From Acidimicrobiaceae bacterium (GTDB lineage Bacteria; Actinomycetota; Acidimicrobiia; Acidimicrobiales; RAAP-2), in assembly GCA_003167415.1 (NCBI GenBank), contig PMTF01000006.1, positions 1 to 64,000 of the forward strand: DNA of 64,000 nucleotides. The letters run 5' to 3'. Position numbers and translations under genes: made by a program. Within the stretch, counting starts at the first letter, position 1. Each line of letters opens with the position of its first letter. The notes under the pieces were generated by a model that saw nothing but the letters and a program-made list of their open reading frames with translations, had not been told where the DNA came from and searched no databases. Positions 296-10,537 of the stretch are shown here, piece after piece.

Positions 296-3200
296 ATGCA
301 AGTTTCTCACAAGATCCGACGCAAACGGAGCTCGCTTCTTTCGACGACGAATCGAATTCTGTCGAGCGCAGCACTACTCCTCGTTGGCATTCTCGGAGCT
401 TCGACAGTTGGCGTCGACTCTGCGGGTTCGGCTGTCAGTGCGCGCAGTCAGTTACTTCCCGGCTCACTCGCGCCAATTCCTTTGGGAGACAAGCTGATGG
501 GACCTGCAATTTCGTCGACGTCGTTGGCCCTGCAGGTGACTCTCGACCCACGAGACCCCGCCGGACTTGCGTCCATGGCCCAAGCAGTCTCCACTCCCGG
601 TTCTCCCGAGTACCACCAATACCTCTCGGCCGGTGAATTCGCCCAGCTTTACGGTCCAACTCCCGCAACAATCGCCGCGGTGACCACCGCGCTCGAAGCC
701 CAAGGGCTCGGTGTTGGTCACGCGTCGGGCACCGACCTCTCGCTGCCGGTCACGGCTACCGTCGCTCAAGTCGAGTCGGCTTTTTTGACTCCCATCGTGA
801 CGTATCGGCTTCCCTCTGGCGATGTCGGCTACGACAACACGAAGTCGCCCAGCGTTCCCGTGTCCGTCGCCTCCCAGATCCAAGGAGTGCTCGGCCTCGA
901 CACTCTCAACCAACCCGAGCCCCTGACGACTCCTTTGGCGCCGGACCGAGGGATTGGTGCAACGACACCCTCCGAGACGTCACCACTGACGAGTCAGCCT
1001 GCGCCTAATGGCAGCTTGTGCGGCAACAGCATCTTCGGCGTCCAAAGTAGTTACGGCGCGTGGACCGCCGACAATCTCGCATGGGCGTACGACTTCACCG
1101 GGTTGTACGCCAACAACGATTTCGGTTCGGGATCAACAGTGGCCCTCGTCGAACTCGCGGGCGCGGGCTATAGCGCGAGCGACATTGCGACGTTCGCGGC
1201 CTGCTACGGCATCACCCTGGGGACCAACCAAATTACGGAGGAAAATACAGACGGAGGGTCGAACACCCTTGGCGGGGGCACTGACGAAGCCGAACTCGAC
1301 ATCGAGACGGTCCTTTCCCTGGCGCCCGCCGCAAACATCGAGGTCTACGAGGGAAATCAGAGTCTCTACAACGTCGAGAGCCAAATCGTCAGTGACGATA
1401 CCGCGAAGATTGTCAGCATCAGTTGGGGTGCGTGCGAGGCGGACTTCGATCCCTCGTACCTGCAGTCCGAGAACACGCTGCTCGAGGCAGCGTCCCTGGA
1501 CGGCCAGACGGTGTTCGCGGCCTCCGGTGACGATGGCTCGGAGGGCTGCAACATGAACGGCGAGTCCGGATCGCCCACAGGAGACTCCCCGTATGCGCAA
1601 GCCGTCAACCCTTCGAACGGCACGCTATACGTCGCAGGCAGCAGTATGGTCAGCGTCATCAGTGAAGCGAACGAATCGCCGGTGGCCAGTATCAGCACAG
1701 GCTACGGTCCTGACGCCGTGATTTATGACTCTGCCACTTCGGAACTGTACGTCGCGAACCGCGGTTCTGACACATTGACCGAGGTCAGCACGACGAACTG
1801 CAATGCGACGATCACTTCAGGCTGCGCGTCGACCACGACCATCGCTGGGTCGTCGGCCCTCGATGGCCCGGACGCCATGGCCCTCGACGGGACCACCCTC
1901 TATGTGACGAACGAGTTCAACCAGACGGTGGCGGTCTTCAATACCACGAGCGGGCAATTTGTGGGATCGGTTTCGTTGCCGACGACGGGGAACCCCGATT
2001 CGGAAACAATCGCGGTGGACTCCGATCATGTCGTGTACGTCGCCGACCACAACTTCGGCGAAGTCGACTATTTCAACGGCGCTACCTGTAATGCCACCAC
2101 CCAAAGCGGATGCTCGACGGCCCCCGTCACGGTCGCGGTGGTTGCAGTTCCCGACGCCATGGTCCTCGATGCGCCCGCGAACAAACTCTTCATTTCGGGG
2201 TATCAGGGTGGCATCAGCGTCTTGAGCACCTCATCCCACACGGTCGTCGCGACGATCAGCACGTCCAGCGTTCCTGGAATCTTTGGCGCAGACGGTGGAG
2301 TCGGGTCGATCGCGATGTCGCCGAATGGTCAGGATCTACTCGCCACCGTTAACACTGACTATTCAAGTGGTATCTATGACGAGGTTCTGGCGACGATAAA
2401 CCCGTTGAGCGACGCCGTCATTGGGGCGGTGAGCTGGAATTGGGGCGACGCCTTGATGGGTCAACTCGTGAGCGATCCCACTCTCAACCTGGTATGGGAC
2501 ACCGTACAAGATTATGGCAGCGATGCGGTACTGGATTTCAACCTGGGCGTGAGCGATCCCGCGGCTCAGCCCGAGGTCACGGGCGTCGGCGGTACGACCC
2601 TCAGCGCGCTCGGTCCCGCGCCCACCGAAAAGGTCTGGAACGACAATGGTGAGTACGCCTCTGGCGCGGGCGGGGGAGGAATCTCTCAGGCGTTCGCGAT
2701 GCCCAACTTCCAAGAGACGTATGGAGAAATATCCGGAAGTAGTGGCACGCCGTGCGCCAATGTGTCGGGAGACTGTCGAGAAGTCCCTGATGTCTCAGCG
2801 GACGCTGACCCGTACACGGGGTACATAGTGTACGACTCACAAGAAGGAGACCCTGGCTGGATTGCCGTGGGTGGCACGAGCGCGGCGTCGCCTCTGTGGG
2901 CCGGTGCGCTGGCCGATATCGCCTCGGCCGACGCAGCTGGCGCAACCGGGTTCGGATCGCTCAATCCGGCCCTCTATACGTTGGCCGCGTCGAGCCCCGG
3001 GACGTACTTCAACGACATCACGTCGGGAAACAACGACTACAACAACGCGAACGGCACTCAGTTTTCGGCACGTAATGGCTACGACATGGCCACCGGCCTT
3101 GGAACCCCGAATGTCTCGGCTCTCGCCGCCGGTCTCGAAGGTGACTTACTCACCGTCCCCGGTGTCCCGACCATTGGAACTCCCACGAGGGGAAATGCTT

Positions 3201-5066
3201 CGGCGACGGTCAACTGGACGGCGCCGACGAACACGGGCGGAAGCGCGATTACTGGCTACACGGTCACGGCGACGACTGGCGCGACACCGACGACGGACGC
3301 ATGCCCCTCTTCGAAGTCGAGCACCGCAACGACCTGTATCGTGACAGGCCTCACCAATGGTGACGCGTACACGTTCACGGTGGCGGCCATCAACGTCGTG
3401 GGGACGGGTTCATTCTCGAACTCTTCGGTGAGCGTAACTCCCGCCGCAGTTCCGGGTGCTCCTACGATTGGTGCGGTGACAAGTGGTAATACGTTGGTGA
3501 GCGTCAACTGGACTGCGCCGTCAAACATTGGTGGCAGTGCGATCGCCGGGTACACGGTTACGTCAGAAAACGTGACGACCTCAACGCCCACGACGGACGC
3601 GTGCCCCTCTTCGACGTCGAGCACCTCAACAAGTTGCACCGTGACGGGTCTCACTAATGGTGACGTGTACACGTTCACGGTTGCGGCCATTAACAACATT
3701 GGCACCAGCCTTTTCTCCGGCTCTTCGGCTAGCGCAACTCCCGCAACTACCCCCGGCGTCCCGGCTATTGACACTCCCACGAGGGGGAATGCTTCTGCGA
3801 AGGTCAATTGGACGGCGCCGACGAGCACGGGCGGAAGCGCGATCACCGGGTACACGGTTACGTCAGAAAACGTGACGACCTCAACGCCCACAACGAACGC
3901 GTGCCCCTCTTCGACGTCGAGCACCTCAACAAGTTGCACCGTGACGGGTCTCACCAATGGTGCCGCGTACACGTTTACGGTCGCGGCCATCAACGTCGTC
4001 GGTACGGGTTCGTTCTCGAACTCTTCGGCGAGCGTAACTCCCGCCTCTACCCCCGGCGTCCCGACCATTGGCCTCCCCACGAGGGGGAATGCTTCGGCAA
4101 TGGTCAATTGGACGGCGCTCGACGAACACGGGTGGCAGTCCCATCACCGGCTACACCGTCACCGCGGAGAACACGACCACCGCAACGGCGACGACGGACG
4201 CGTGCCCCTCTTCGACGTCGAACAACGCAACGACCTGTACCGTGACAGGCCTCACTAATGGTGACGCCTACACCTTTGCCATTGCCGCCATCAATGCGGT
4301 TGGCACTGGGTCGTTCTCGACTTCCTCATCGTTGGTGACGCCGAACAACCTCCTGCCGGGCGCGCCGGCGAACGCCACTGCCGTGGGCGGCACCACGTCA
4401 GCGACGGTGACCTGGATCGCTCCAACCATCAATGCTGGATCCATCACTGGCTTCACAGTCACTGCGGATGACACCACGGCATCGATTACGACGTTCGACG
4501 CCTGCCCTTCGTCTACGACGAGCACAACGACAAGTTGCACCGTAACGGGACTCACGAGCGGTGATGGCTATGTCTTCACCGTCGCAGCCACGAACGCCAC
4601 TGGTACCGGTTCTTACTCCACAGCTTCCAACCAAGTGACGCCGACCGCGCCCTCTGGCGGCGGTGGTGGTAGTGGCGGCGGTGGTGGTGGCGGTGGCGGT
4701 GGTACGGGAACACCTCCTACCCCACCTACGCCGTCTCCTCCTACACCTCCGCCGTCTCCACCTCCCTCCCATCCGACGTCGCCCCCCGCACCGAAGAAAC
4801 CTGCGACCGTCGCCGTTGGCTTTGCGGCCAATGAATCGACGCTCAGCACGCCAATGAAAGCGAACCTGGCGATTCTCGCGAAGAAGCTGGCGAGGGGTTA
4901 CTCGATCACTGTCACTGGCTACGCCAAAAGGAACGCTGTGTTGGCGAAGCGTCGCGCGGAGGTCGTCGCGGCGTTTCTCGCCACACTCGTCAAGACGCAC
5001 GTCACATTAAAAGTGGTAACGAAAACGACGTCGAGTAAGGCCACGGTAGTCACGACACGGACGTAG
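296..5066 (+). CDS. secreted S53 (sedolisin-type) peptidase with beta-propeller insert, Fn3 repeats and OmpA-like end; frameshifted
   Basis: This is a secreted serine-carboxyl peptidase. The ATG at 296 is preceded by GGAAGG and starts a signal peptide (basic RRKR, hydrophobic core at residues 22-38). A pro-kumamolisin-like prodomain spans about 55-205. The catalytic dyad lies in DEAELD (Glu331, Asp335), the oxyanion Asp412 in ASGDDG, and the nucleophile Ser862 in GGTSAASP. Residues about 438-755, between the oxyanion Asp and GVGGTTL, form a YVTN/NHL-like beta-propeller not normal for S53. Five Fn3 repeats follow, then a Gly/Pro-rich linker and an OmpA-like end (VTGYAKRNAVLAKRRAE). One extra base near 4117 (GCGCTCGACG against GCGCCGACG in sister repeats) moves the reading from the first frame, which would stop at 4258, to the frame ending at 5066. 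It may be an assembly error or a real break. Confidence 0.85.
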
Positions 5067-7812: not shown

Positions 7813-8790
7813 CTATGGTCCCGTATTCAGCGCCATCAATGGCTGACCATGCGAGGCTCTGGTGAACGTGACGAAGCGGTCGTTCTTTCCTACATTCCAC
7901 GCGCCATGCCAACCATCAAAATGGAGATCGAGGCTCATCAGCAGGGTGAAGTCGTTCTGTGATTTCCAGGAGTAGGGGTGGTAACTCAACACCTTGCCGC
8001 TCGCAAGCTTCACGGTACCGTCTCGCTGGCTCGATACCAGAAACAGCTTCGACGCGGTCGAAGGGCCAACCAGGTGCCAGTAGTTGAGGTAGTCCTGCAA
8101 TTCATTCGCTGCGTGCTCATACGCAACTTGGCGTGCCTGCGCGGGGGTCAAAAGCTTCTGGATGACGCCGGCCGCGACGTTGAAGTAGTCCTTGGTGCAG
8201 ATCGGCACTTGCTCGGGCAGTGCGAAGTAGTGCGATGGCCACGAATCACTGCGCACCGCTGGGTTCGATTCCACTTCAATCCCGTCGGCGTACTTCGGAT
8301 CGCACGAACTGCCATGCTCACGCACCAACTTCTTGAATGCCTCTGTGGAGATCGAACCGATGGACACACTGGCGTAGGCGCGGTCGCCGTTCGCGAGAAC
8401 GATTGGCGTGTATTGGACGGCCCCGCTCACCGAGCCAACACCGACTGGTGTGTTCGAGGGACCACTCACACCTTGTATGGGAACGTTGTCGACGATCAAC
8501 GTGCACGTCGCCCCGGTGTTCTGGAACCAAAGCGTCGCCTTGAAGCCAGCTGACGCCGAGTACGTTCCCTGCCGTGGACTCATCCAAGGTCGCAGTTGGG
8601 CCGGCCGACACGTCGGTGGCAATGTGGCGTTCTTGACGGTCGCGCTGGCCAGGGGTGCGGTGAACAGAGAGGTCGCGAGCAGTGCACCGGTGACGGCTGC
8701 GACTACGAACTTGTTGGGCGGTAGGTGGCCCTTGGAAACGCCGTGTTGCAAATGAGTGTGTACCGCGACACCCTTGAGTTGTGTCTTCAC
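7813..8790 (-). CDS. secreted DUF4232 protein (third of the set)
   Basis: This exported protein has an N-terminal hydrophobic segment (VVAAVTGALLATSLF) and a DUF4232-type immunoglobulin-like domain (CRPAQLRPW, LWFQNTGATCTL). The C-terminal half is unique. I choose the GTG at 8790 because it lies two bases after the stop of the upstream gene and AGGA precedes it by about nine bases; an ATG at 8826 would overlap that gene. It is the last gene of the run that begins with the signal peptidase. DUF4232 proteins are usually cell-surface or lipoprotein-like; no lipobox is seen. Confidence 0.75.
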   Translation of the reverse strand: MKTQLKGVAVHTHLQHGVSKGHLPPNKFVVAAVTGALLATSLFTAPLASATVKNATLPPTCRPAQLRPWMSPRQGTYSASAGFKATLWFQNTGATCTLIVDNVPIQGVSGPSNTPVGVGSVSGAVQYTPIVLANGDRAYASVSIGSISTEAFKKLVREHGSSCDPKYADGIEVESNPAVRSDSWPSHYFALPEQVPICTKDYFNVAAGVIQKLLTPAQARQVAYEHAANELQDYLNYWHLVGPSTASKLFLVSSQRDGTVKLASGKVLSYHPYSWKSQNDFTLLMSLDLHFDGWHGAWNVGKNDRFVTFTRASHGQPLMALNTGP

Positions 8791-8792
8791 CT

Positions 8793-9371
8793 TTAAATAT
8801 CCTGAAACGAAAAATGGTTTCTCCATCCGAGTTGACTGACGGCCAAGCCACAGGTCGTGTCGAACGTCACATCGGGTACTTGAACAGTTCCTTCATTTTT
8901 CGGGAGTACGACAATCATTCCTGAGTAGATCTGACTTGGGGGGAGCACTCCGTATGTCGGGCCGCACAAATCACCGGTACTGACAATCAACGCCCCGCTC
9001 ATTCGCGGAGCGAGATCAGTCGGGCGAAGATTGCCACCGTAAGTACCGTGGCCCGTGACGCGTAATCGGTATTGTCTCGCTCCCCTGAGACCAATGATGG
9101 TTGGGTAGTCGCCAAGTACGCAGGTCTTGGGTCCGACATTCGTAAAAGCAATTGTGGTCACTTCGTGCCCAGCCCCCACTTGATTCCTGACGAACGCTCC
9201 CACCAAGTTCGAACCTCTACACGAAGGATTTGCGACGCTGGCTGCACTGGCGGCGATTGGACCGCCGGCGACGTTGAGAAGAGTGGACCCGATGATTACT
9301 GACGTCATCATCAGTCCTTGAACGAAGTGGACAGCCAATCGCAAATTGAACTTGGACCCGCGAAACTTCAC
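8793..9371 (-). CDS. secreted DUF4232 protein (second of the set)
   Basis: After a long hydrophobic signal region (FVQGLMMTSVIIGSTLLN) comes a DUF4232 domain: a first Cys (PSCRGSN), TIAFTNVGPKTCVLGDYP, and a final Cys pair around GPTYG and FDTTCGLAV. The GTG at 9371 overlaps the TGA of the upstream gene as GTGA, which suggests translational coupling, and GGACGAAG lies upstream. An ATG at 9395 is the alternative. No enzyme motif is visible. Confidence 0.7.
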   Translation of the reverse strand: MKFRGSKFNLRLAVHFVQGLMMTSVIIGSTLLNVAGGPIAASAASVANPSCRGSNLVGAFVRNQVGAGHEVTTIAFTNVGPKTCVLGDYPTIIGLRGARQYRLRVTGHGTYGGNLRPTDLAPRMSGALIVSTGDLCGPTYGVLPPSQIYSGMIVVLPKNEGTVQVPDVTFDTTCGLAVSQLGWRNHFSFQDI

Positions 9372-10537
9372 AGAAACAGCTTCGTCCGGCGCCATTGATG
9401 ATTACCAACATTTAGCACGTAGAGGGCGTAACTCTGTTTCGGCAACGTCGCCCAACTCGCGGGACCGACGCGAAGCCCGATGCCGCCCCCCGGGACAACG
9501 TAAGGCGTGATGGCCCAGTTGGCGGCGGCGTTCAGGTACTGATACCACTGACGTCCGCCGTCCGTCGAAACATCAATTATGGAGAAGCTCTCCATCACCA
9601 CGGCGTCCGAACGTTCTGGAAACACCCTGGTGACGTAGTACAGCGATCCGCCCGCCCAGTCAGCGGCCAGTTGCGGCCCCGCGGCATTCCAATGGGCTCC
9701 GCCGTCGGTGCTGCGCACCGGGAACTGTCCGGCCCCGGTAGGCGCCCCCCATACTCCCCAGCTATAGGTTGCTCCCGACGCCTTGAACGTCACGGCAAGC
9801 GACTGCGCCGCGGTCAACCGGGTTCCCCAGGGAAAATTGTGGCCCGTAGCCGATTCAGTGAGTCCGGGCTGTGACCGCAGGATCGCCGGATACGGCGGTG
9901 TGTCGTAGCCCGCGACGGTCATTACTGGCGATACGGCGATCTCTCCACACTGGTGCTCCTGTACCGTTCCTTCACCGAAGGGTTCGAATCGGACTGAAAG
10001 TGTGAGCGCGCTCGAACTTCCCGGAGGAGTGATCCGGATTTCACTCGCCATTGGGCAGCGATCATTTTCGAAGCCAGTTGAGTCGGTATATCCAAGGTCG
10101 AAATTCGCAATTTCATACGGCTCCAGATCGACGCGAATATCCGGTTGCGAGAGATAGGGAAAATATGATGCTTCACGATTTTCGTGAGTGGGAATGTCGC
10201 TTCCTTCCTTGCTCATCATTTGAACTTTCGGCACCCCATCAAGCCAACAAGTGCGTTTCGAAATGTTCGTTATCGTAATTGTCAGACTGGCGTGACCCAT
10301 AGCGACGCCGCCTTTGGACAGATTCACCTCGAGTTGGCCTACGGAACACTGAGTGATGGTGCTGCTCTTTTGCGCGGCGTAAGCGGAGTGATTCGCCAGA
10401 AAGAACGTCGAAGCGAGCGCTATGCAAACCAGGAAACGTGCTTTCGATCGTGACTTACGAACAGTCTCGATGATTGGGCCCCTTTTCTGGCTTTTCCAAT
10501 GTTGGGTTAAAACCACTTGATGGATTTCAATGGCCAA
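9368..10537 (-). CDS. secreted DUF4232 protein with C-terminal BNR (sialidase-type) repeats
   Basis: The 389-residue product has a signal-like segment (FLVCIALASTFFLANHSAYA), a DUF4232 domain (ITITNISKRTCWLDGVPKV), and a C-terminal region with two BNR/Asp-box-like motifs, STDGGAHWN and STDGGRQWY. Asp boxes mark a beta-propeller fold and do not by themselves mean sialidase activity. The ATG at 10537 overlaps lepB by 31 bp; a GTG at 10516 is also in frame. It belongs to the same transcription unit as lepB. Confidence 0.7.
   Translation of the reverse strand: MAIEIHQVVLTQHWKSQKRGPIIETVRKSRSKARFLVCIALASTFFLANHSAYAAQKSSTITQCSVGQLEVNLSKGGVAMGHASLTITITNISKRTCWLDGVPKVQMMSKEGSDIPTHENREASYFPYLSQPDIRVDLEPYEIANFDLGYTDSTGFENDRCPMASEIRITPPGSSSALTLSVRFEPFGEGTVQEHQCGEIAVSPVMTVAGYDTPPYPAILRSQPGLTESATGHNFPWGTRLTAAQSLAVTFKASGATYSWGVWGAPTGAGQFPVRSTDGGAHWNAAGPQLAADWAGGSLYYVTRVFPERSDAVVMESFSIIDVSTDGGRQWYQYLNAAANWAITPYVVPGGGIGLRVGPASWATLPKQSYALYVLNVGNHQWRRTKLFL

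Follow-up and report, generated by a model that had tools for sequence, protein, structure and literature searches.

The closest described systems to the gene analyzed here are kumamolisin and kumamolisin-As of peptidase family S53 (sedolisins). In case of kumamolisin-As, Asp179 in the substrate pocket confers the preference for arginine at P1 according to a review (PMC11294657), and D169 and D179 were among the six positions altered in the specificity redesign Kuma010 (PMC5935664). Inserts are described in fungal endosedolisins, where they are cluster-specific, ca. 9-28 residues long and in some cases near the binding pocket (PMC6278154). We analyzed the first 64,000 nucleotides of contig PMTF01000006.1 from an Acidimicrobiaceae bacterium, hereafter the window, which begins at the first base of the 114,897-base contig (genome G000, 2.66 Mb, 96.6% complete). 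An open reading frame (ORF) on its plus strand (296-4258, ATG at 296) encodes 1320 amino acids, among them a sedolisin catalytic domain into which a ca. 330-residue repeat domain is nested.

A split sedolisin with a nested repeat domain

The window protein belongs to the pro-kumamolisin type of S53 peptidases and has the full set of four catalytic residues; triad, oxyanion Asp, fold and pro-domain, which are among the defining features of the family, are each present. The pro-domain (PF09286) lies at residues 69-203 (E 1.4e-27, 97.1 bits against a cut-off of 23.5). The S53 domain that follows is split, with kumamolisin from the PDB aligning to residues 256-419 and again to residues 751-939, and the two halves spanning about 250-420 and 751-948. 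The triad E331/D335/S862 and the oxyanion D412, which aligns with the oxyanion D164 of kumamolisin, form invariant columns in alignments A1 (25 rows) and A9 (21 rows). This bears out the original prediction, made from the letters of the DNA, that every catalytic residue is kept. A model of the S53 domain together with its insert (model residues 2-699) aligns with kumamolisin over 345 residues (Z 49.0, root-mean-square deviation 2.1, 38% identity among structurally aligned positions). Its sedolisin-type, subtilisin-like fold scores Z 46.5-49.0 against kumamolisin and Pseudomonas sedolisin entries, with a Foldseek E of 2.7e-17. Further, the comparison at the calcium site covered the Asp at kumamolisin D316, with which window D907 aligns. 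The protein would be expected to be secreted and to act as an acid protease. The parts of the locus are as follows.

296-4108, plus strand: coding stretch of the multidomain sedolisin gene that stays in frame (ORF; frame out of register after ca. 4116 by Fn3 repeat comparison)
296-442, plus strand: probable Sec signal peptide with charged n-region, hydrophobic core and AVSA (sequence read by eye)
500-904, plus strand: Pro-kumamolisin activation domain, residues 69-203 (PF09286)
1043-1555, plus strand: S53 N half with triad E331 and D335, W377 and oxyanion D412 (match to kumamolisin chain 6-171; model Z 49; invariant columns)
1556-2545, plus strand: nested insert, residues 421-750, predicted YVTN beta-propeller (TIGR02276, AlphaFold2 models, fold match to 1l0q, same insert in a second genome, G225/L107)
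about 1586-2545, plus strand: predicted propeller proper within the insert
2546-3139, plus strand: S53 C half with GVGGTT, catalytic S862 in GGTSAASP and calcium-site region (match to kumamolisin chain 177-347; model Z 49)
3140-4650, plus strand: Fn3 repeats, ca. 300-bp tandem DNA units, the fourth broken near 4116 (PF00041; TRF)
4651-5066, plus strand: Gly/Pro linker followed by an OmpA-like C-terminal domain, in a different frame from the protease (PF00691 under cut-off; paralogous tails in the genome)

The insert (residues 421-750, nt 1556-2545) is nested between oxyanion Asp412 and GVGGTT and takes the place of residues 172-176 of kumamolisin, as window residue 419 aligns to residue 171 of the kumamolisin chain and residue 751 to residue 177. 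The kumamolisin oxyanion Asp164 stands eight residues ahead of the insertion gap. YVTN repeats are detected by TIGR02276 with 29.6 bits in the whole protein and 34.1 bits in the insert, above the cut-off of 27.85, and two stretches pass separately. AlphaFold2 modeling of the insert alone (4 rows) gave a mean predicted local distance difference test (pLDDT) of 64.8, with residues 1-235 mostly above 70 and the last ca. 100 poor. Among PDB entries, this model best matches 1l0q, the YVTN propeller of an archaeal surface-layer protein (Foldseek E 4.9e-13; Z 27.1 over 249 residues). For S53 plus insert (21 rows, the insert being covered almost by the window alone), mean pLDDT was again 64.8 and the predicted template-modeling score 0.57; here, model residues of about 178-492 match propellers at Z ca. 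20 (1l0q specifically at Z 20.2, model 178-485). The alignment used for folding was A9, picked after trials; MAFFT had misaligned A3, A4, A6 and A8, which were left out. Because the model aligns independently to kumamolisin and to propellers, the chain is predicted to exit the sedolisin core, make a propeller and come back.

Split domain, TIGR02276 matches and modeled fold agree with the original prediction of a propeller inserted between oxyanion Asp and catalytic Ser, and the structure prediction proposed there as a check returned a propeller. The YVTN repeat type was likewise right, whereas the length is ca. 330 rather than about 315 residues. By these models the YVTN insert has a propeller fold with about five well-modeled blades. 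It may close with seven: a hand-made pattern finds seven motifs spaced 40-52 residues apart in the window insert, the last ca. 100 residues of which are the poorly modeled ones. The window insert shows weak autocorrelation (-0.31 vs. a shuffle mean of -0.44, standard deviation 0.06), weaker than that of the other inserts described below but one; the L112 insert is likewise below zero (-0.20). Two CNAxxxSGC motifs in the window propeller (1790-1830 and 2080-2120), found in L107 too, would probably form disulfide-stapled loops. A scan of genome contigs yielded one stand-alone YVTN protein only.

Inserts at the same loop across the order

Related genes were sought with an S53 query lacking the insert, to which an ordinary S53 gives one high-scoring segment pair (HSP) and an insert-bearing one gives two separated HSPs or one half. 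As few candidates were scored per genome, all counts are lower bounds. Out of 298 genomes of the order, 88 contained an S53 match at E 1e-12, and a split or half-only insert pattern was counted by eye in at least 22 of 146 loci (150 rows) among the matches listed. Loci from this search and loci retrieved separately gave 18 genes with both halves (window included; 14 genomes, 8 families). In 18/18 the insert sits at this one loop, which carries 285-369 or 981-988 extra residues. At this loop the remaining S53 genes with two halves carry 4-24 additional residues, or 30-50 if only part of the C half is matched. Four further insert-type genes are incomplete: two run into a contig end, the frame of one is broken and another contains a run of N.

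The same YVTN insert is found at the same site in G225 (locus L107), with 40% identity over the junction query (E 1.7e-37) and 36% over the insert, so this arrangement is not a product of chance. Among the matches listed for 48 other genomes of the window's genus, read by eye, none has the insert, and an S53 paralogue on contig C23 of the window's own genome lacks it as well. A wider search covered 396 genomes of the phylum, of which 45 had a match, including some members of the order; read by eye, it showed no split match beyond the order. The original prediction could name no described protease with this layout and proposed a search of S53 members for inserts at this loop. The layout proved recurrent and not unique, given one further YVTN insert and 16 genes with inserts of a second family, whereas a literature search of titles and abstract openings, most subscription journals lying outside it, found no description of a propeller inside S53.

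Some candidates were rejected. The C-half-only matches L180, L181, L179 (window's genus) and L183 are plain S53 genes without insert. A second insertion site near the catalytic Ser was considered for eight genes (L118-L125) whose HSPs end near query 285-305, and was ruled out in L118, L119, L121, L123 and L124, which have short loop insertions and long C-terminal regions only. An apparent loss of Ser from L118 and L123 in the residue alignment reflects a short C-half match, the GGTS motif being visible in their sequences. Viral scans with L107 and L012 as queries gave no match. Viral contigs L145 and L152 were seen to have one ORF with collagen-like Gly-X-X repeats followed by YVTN repeats.

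Two families of insert can be told apart. The window and L107 inserts match mutually (E 5e-34 and 3e-35) and match none of the other 16 at E 1e-3; the L107 insert also matches Pfam Lactonase and NHL above cut-off. The remaining 16 are interlinked and make up a second repeat family with two sub-groups, joined by hhalign at 97.1% (11 vs. 3 rows). Between the larger sub-group and the YVTN pair there is no profile similarity (0.1%). No Pfam family exceeded its cut-off in the six second-family inserts scanned, and the L110 insert scored 12.4 bits with the Pfam tectonin model, below the cut-off of 30. The profile of the larger sub-group (11 rows) matches the solved structure of Tectonin 2 (5fsb, E 8.8e-6), and since they are tectonin-like, the second-family inserts are probably propellers too.

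Repeats were counted with a Cys motif for the second family and a hand-tuned motif for the YVTN pair, all patterns being hand-made. Seven motifs per insert were found in 14/18, including L098 with one gap of 87. The ca. 985-residue inserts of L102 (G135) and L103 (G091) have 21, which would correspond to three seven-bladed propellers nested in succession. L099 has eight motifs (one pair only 14 apart) and L116 six (one gap of 81). The same order also contains five ORFs without an S53 match that are built of the second-family repeat, SVSCxSxxFCxAVD (L186-L188, L194 and L195 in G157, G080 and G081), with 7, 8, 14, 14 and 14 motifs. The multiples of seven are suggestive of complete rings whose ends come together, least firmly for the YVTN pair.

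In a tree built from 61 catalytic domains with inserts removed, the 17/18 insert-bearing rows included (the incomplete L100 was left out) occupy at least two positions. A single clade of insert-bearing enzymes is rejected (log-likelihood lower by 66.7, approximately unbiased p 0.0016), for a group defined after the search and a sample that is not random. A constraint that unites the two YVTN rows is not rejected (p 0.13), and the window row sits on a long branch (0.88). With a single clade rejected and two insert families showing no sequence relationship, filling or refilling of the loop took place at least twice. One early insertion followed by losses and full exchange of the insert is a possible history, to which the same minimum applies, and free-standing repeat proteins are a possible source of the second-family inserts.

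Pocket residues and possible roles of the propeller

Kumamolisin pocket positions 169 and 179 flank residues 172-176, and the insert therefore sits between two pocket residues. We compared residues at kumamolisin positions between 18 insert-bearing and 52 insert-free genes, with gaps kept in the totals, kinship uncorrected and a sample that is not random. D164 and S278 equivalents are kept in 18/18 insert-bearing genes and those of E78 and D82 in 17/18, the 18th (L100) being cut by a contig end. Position 179 is Asp in 6/18 insert-bearing vs. 38/52 insert-free genes and position 169 is Asp in 5/18 vs. 43/52, while W129 is replaced by Tyr in 5/18 vs. 1/52.

Based on these findings, we propose that the window protein would be an acid serine protease of family S53, secreted as a zymogen, with a complete propeller nested in the loop that connects the oxyanion Asp with the pocket residue at kumamolisin 179. 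A closed propeller has its two ends next to each other, so that such a ring can hang on a loop and leave the subtilisin-like core unbroken. The propeller would border the cleft on its S1 side, possibly over it, and would most likely serve as an exosite that docks a protein or glycoprotein substrate or restricts access to the cleft, and so sets specificity. The original suggestion that the insert selects substrates or controls access is plausible in that the insertion site adjoins pocket residues. The architecture is well supported; the function is what we infer. We regard it as an evenly balanced proposition that the enzymes are active, with a remodeled pocket and the propeller as docking or gating domain. 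Somewhat more tentatively, the oxyanion Asp-to-S1-pocket loop of sedolisins may be an evolutionary socket, within one order, for repeat domains of two unrelated families, 21-motif inserts included, with a swap of propellers retargeting a constant acid protease.

Several observations weigh against this proposal. The model of S53 plus insert has a moderate-confidence insert with pLDDT below 50 at residues 408-500, a confidence too low to fix how the propeller is oriented to the cleft. The calcium-site Asp (kumamolisin D316) is Asp in 6/18 insert-bearing vs. 49/52 insert-free genes. With this residue altered, calcium binding may have been lost from some insert-bearing enzymes, at a cost to their stability or activity. 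Shared descent could account for the pocket differences, and the majority of the S53 loci listed for these genomes lack an insert. Finally, being frame-shifted, the window copy may be decaying or misassembled beyond its third Fn3 repeat; protease and propeller both lie upstream of the shift. Regarding the calcium site itself, replacement of the D316 equivalent, mostly by Asn, was seen in 12/18 insert-bearing genes and in 1/52 insert-free ones (2 gaps).

The strongest rival explanation, to which we give roughly one chance in three, is that the loop is simply one of few sites able to take a domain with adjacent ends, and that the propeller serves in general adhesion or matrix binding and leaves catalysis unchanged. 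The scarcity of the insert among the S53 genes listed agrees with such tolerated decoration, as do the varied C-terminal add-ons (Fn3, TIG, He_PIG) and the occurrence of second-family repeats in the five S53-free ORFs, where they would be useful apart from a protease. It accounts less well for the use of the same loop in 18/18 genes despite the presence of other surface loops, in a search whose design would have overlooked inserts at other sites only in part, and for the differences in pocket residues adjoining the insert.

Alternatively, the propeller could be a latency or maturation device: with the pro-domain it would shield the cleft until activation, when its cleavage or displacement would give a two-chain enzyme. 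This is improbable: the insert does adjoin the cleft, and a pro-domain is found in the window and in 8/8 insert-bearing N-terminal regions scanned (of 18), but in kumamolisin latency is served by the pro-domain alone, which suffices in insert-free relatives. That a chimeric assembly or decaying gene fused two unrelated proteins, as the position at a contig end, the frame shift and the 48 congeners without such an insert among their listed matches might suggest, is very improbable and largely refuted by the same insert with the same CNAxxxSGC motifs at the same site in G225. A reading frame open across both junctions and an even G+C content at third codon positions over them (70%, 73%, 71%) also speak against it.

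If the propeller is a docking or gating domain, the same loop could host a binding domain of choice in engineered kumamolisins, of which versions redesigned to cut gluten peptides already exist. One loop beside the specificity pocket appears to take complete propeller-like domains of two unrelated families, which suggests a swappable means of steering what an enzyme cuts. These genes also offer natural test material for adding a docking domain to a protease without breaking the protease.

The C-terminal region and comparison with known systems

The original prediction treated 296-5066 as one gene, and this does not hold, as the interval spans more than one reading frame. Comparison of the fourth Fn3 repeat with its three sister repeats locates a frame shift of one extra base near 4116, after which ORF 296-4258 ends. 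The rest of the fourth Fn3 repeat, the fifth, the Gly/Pro linker and the OmpA-like end are readable only in another frame (4119-5066). The predicted Fn3 repeats are there (PF00041), whereas the OmpA-like end reaches 23.8 bits with PF00691, below the Pfam cut-off of 27.2. Being out of frame and below cut-off, this tail leaves the proposed tether to the cell wall unsupported. It also seems to lack the Asp of what we take to be the ligand-binding motif. The Fn3 DNA units at 3157-4273 are near-copies (period 300, 3.7 copies, 77% matches by TRF), a repeat type prone to expansion or assembly error. The same OmpA-like segment ends three other large proteins of the genome, L085 (C16), L086 (C24) and L087 (C21); that of L086 exceeds the Pfam cut-off (31.2 bits), and L086 has SISC repeats resembling the second insert family. 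On the minus strand, three consecutive ORFs (7813-10537) resemble secreted proteins built on related lines. ARAGORN detected no tRNA in the window.

Among known systems, serine peptidases of the prolyl oligopeptidase family S9 carry a propeller next to their active site, probably as a gate to it, and the window protein might perhaps work alike. It is not a member of that family, whose catalytic domain is an alpha/beta-hydrolase and not of S53 fold. S8 subtilases such as C5a peptidase likewise nest a domain within a subtilisin-like catalytic domain, but with an Asp-His-Ser triad and a PA domain instead of a propeller. The archaeal surface-layer protein 1l0q and E. coli YncE share the YVTN repeat family and fold, although their propellers are not placed inside an enzyme loop. 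Tectonin 2, which is matched by a sequence profile of the second insert family only, is a six-bladed lectin, whereas those inserts mostly have seven motifs and lie inside a protease. The fungal endosedolisins are alike in having inserts in sedolisins, which are short and not whole domains. Kumamolisin and kumamolisin-As share the pro-domain, the E-D-S triad, the oxyanion Asp and the core fold with the window protein and differ at the loop, where five residues of kumamolisin (172-176) stand against ca. 330.

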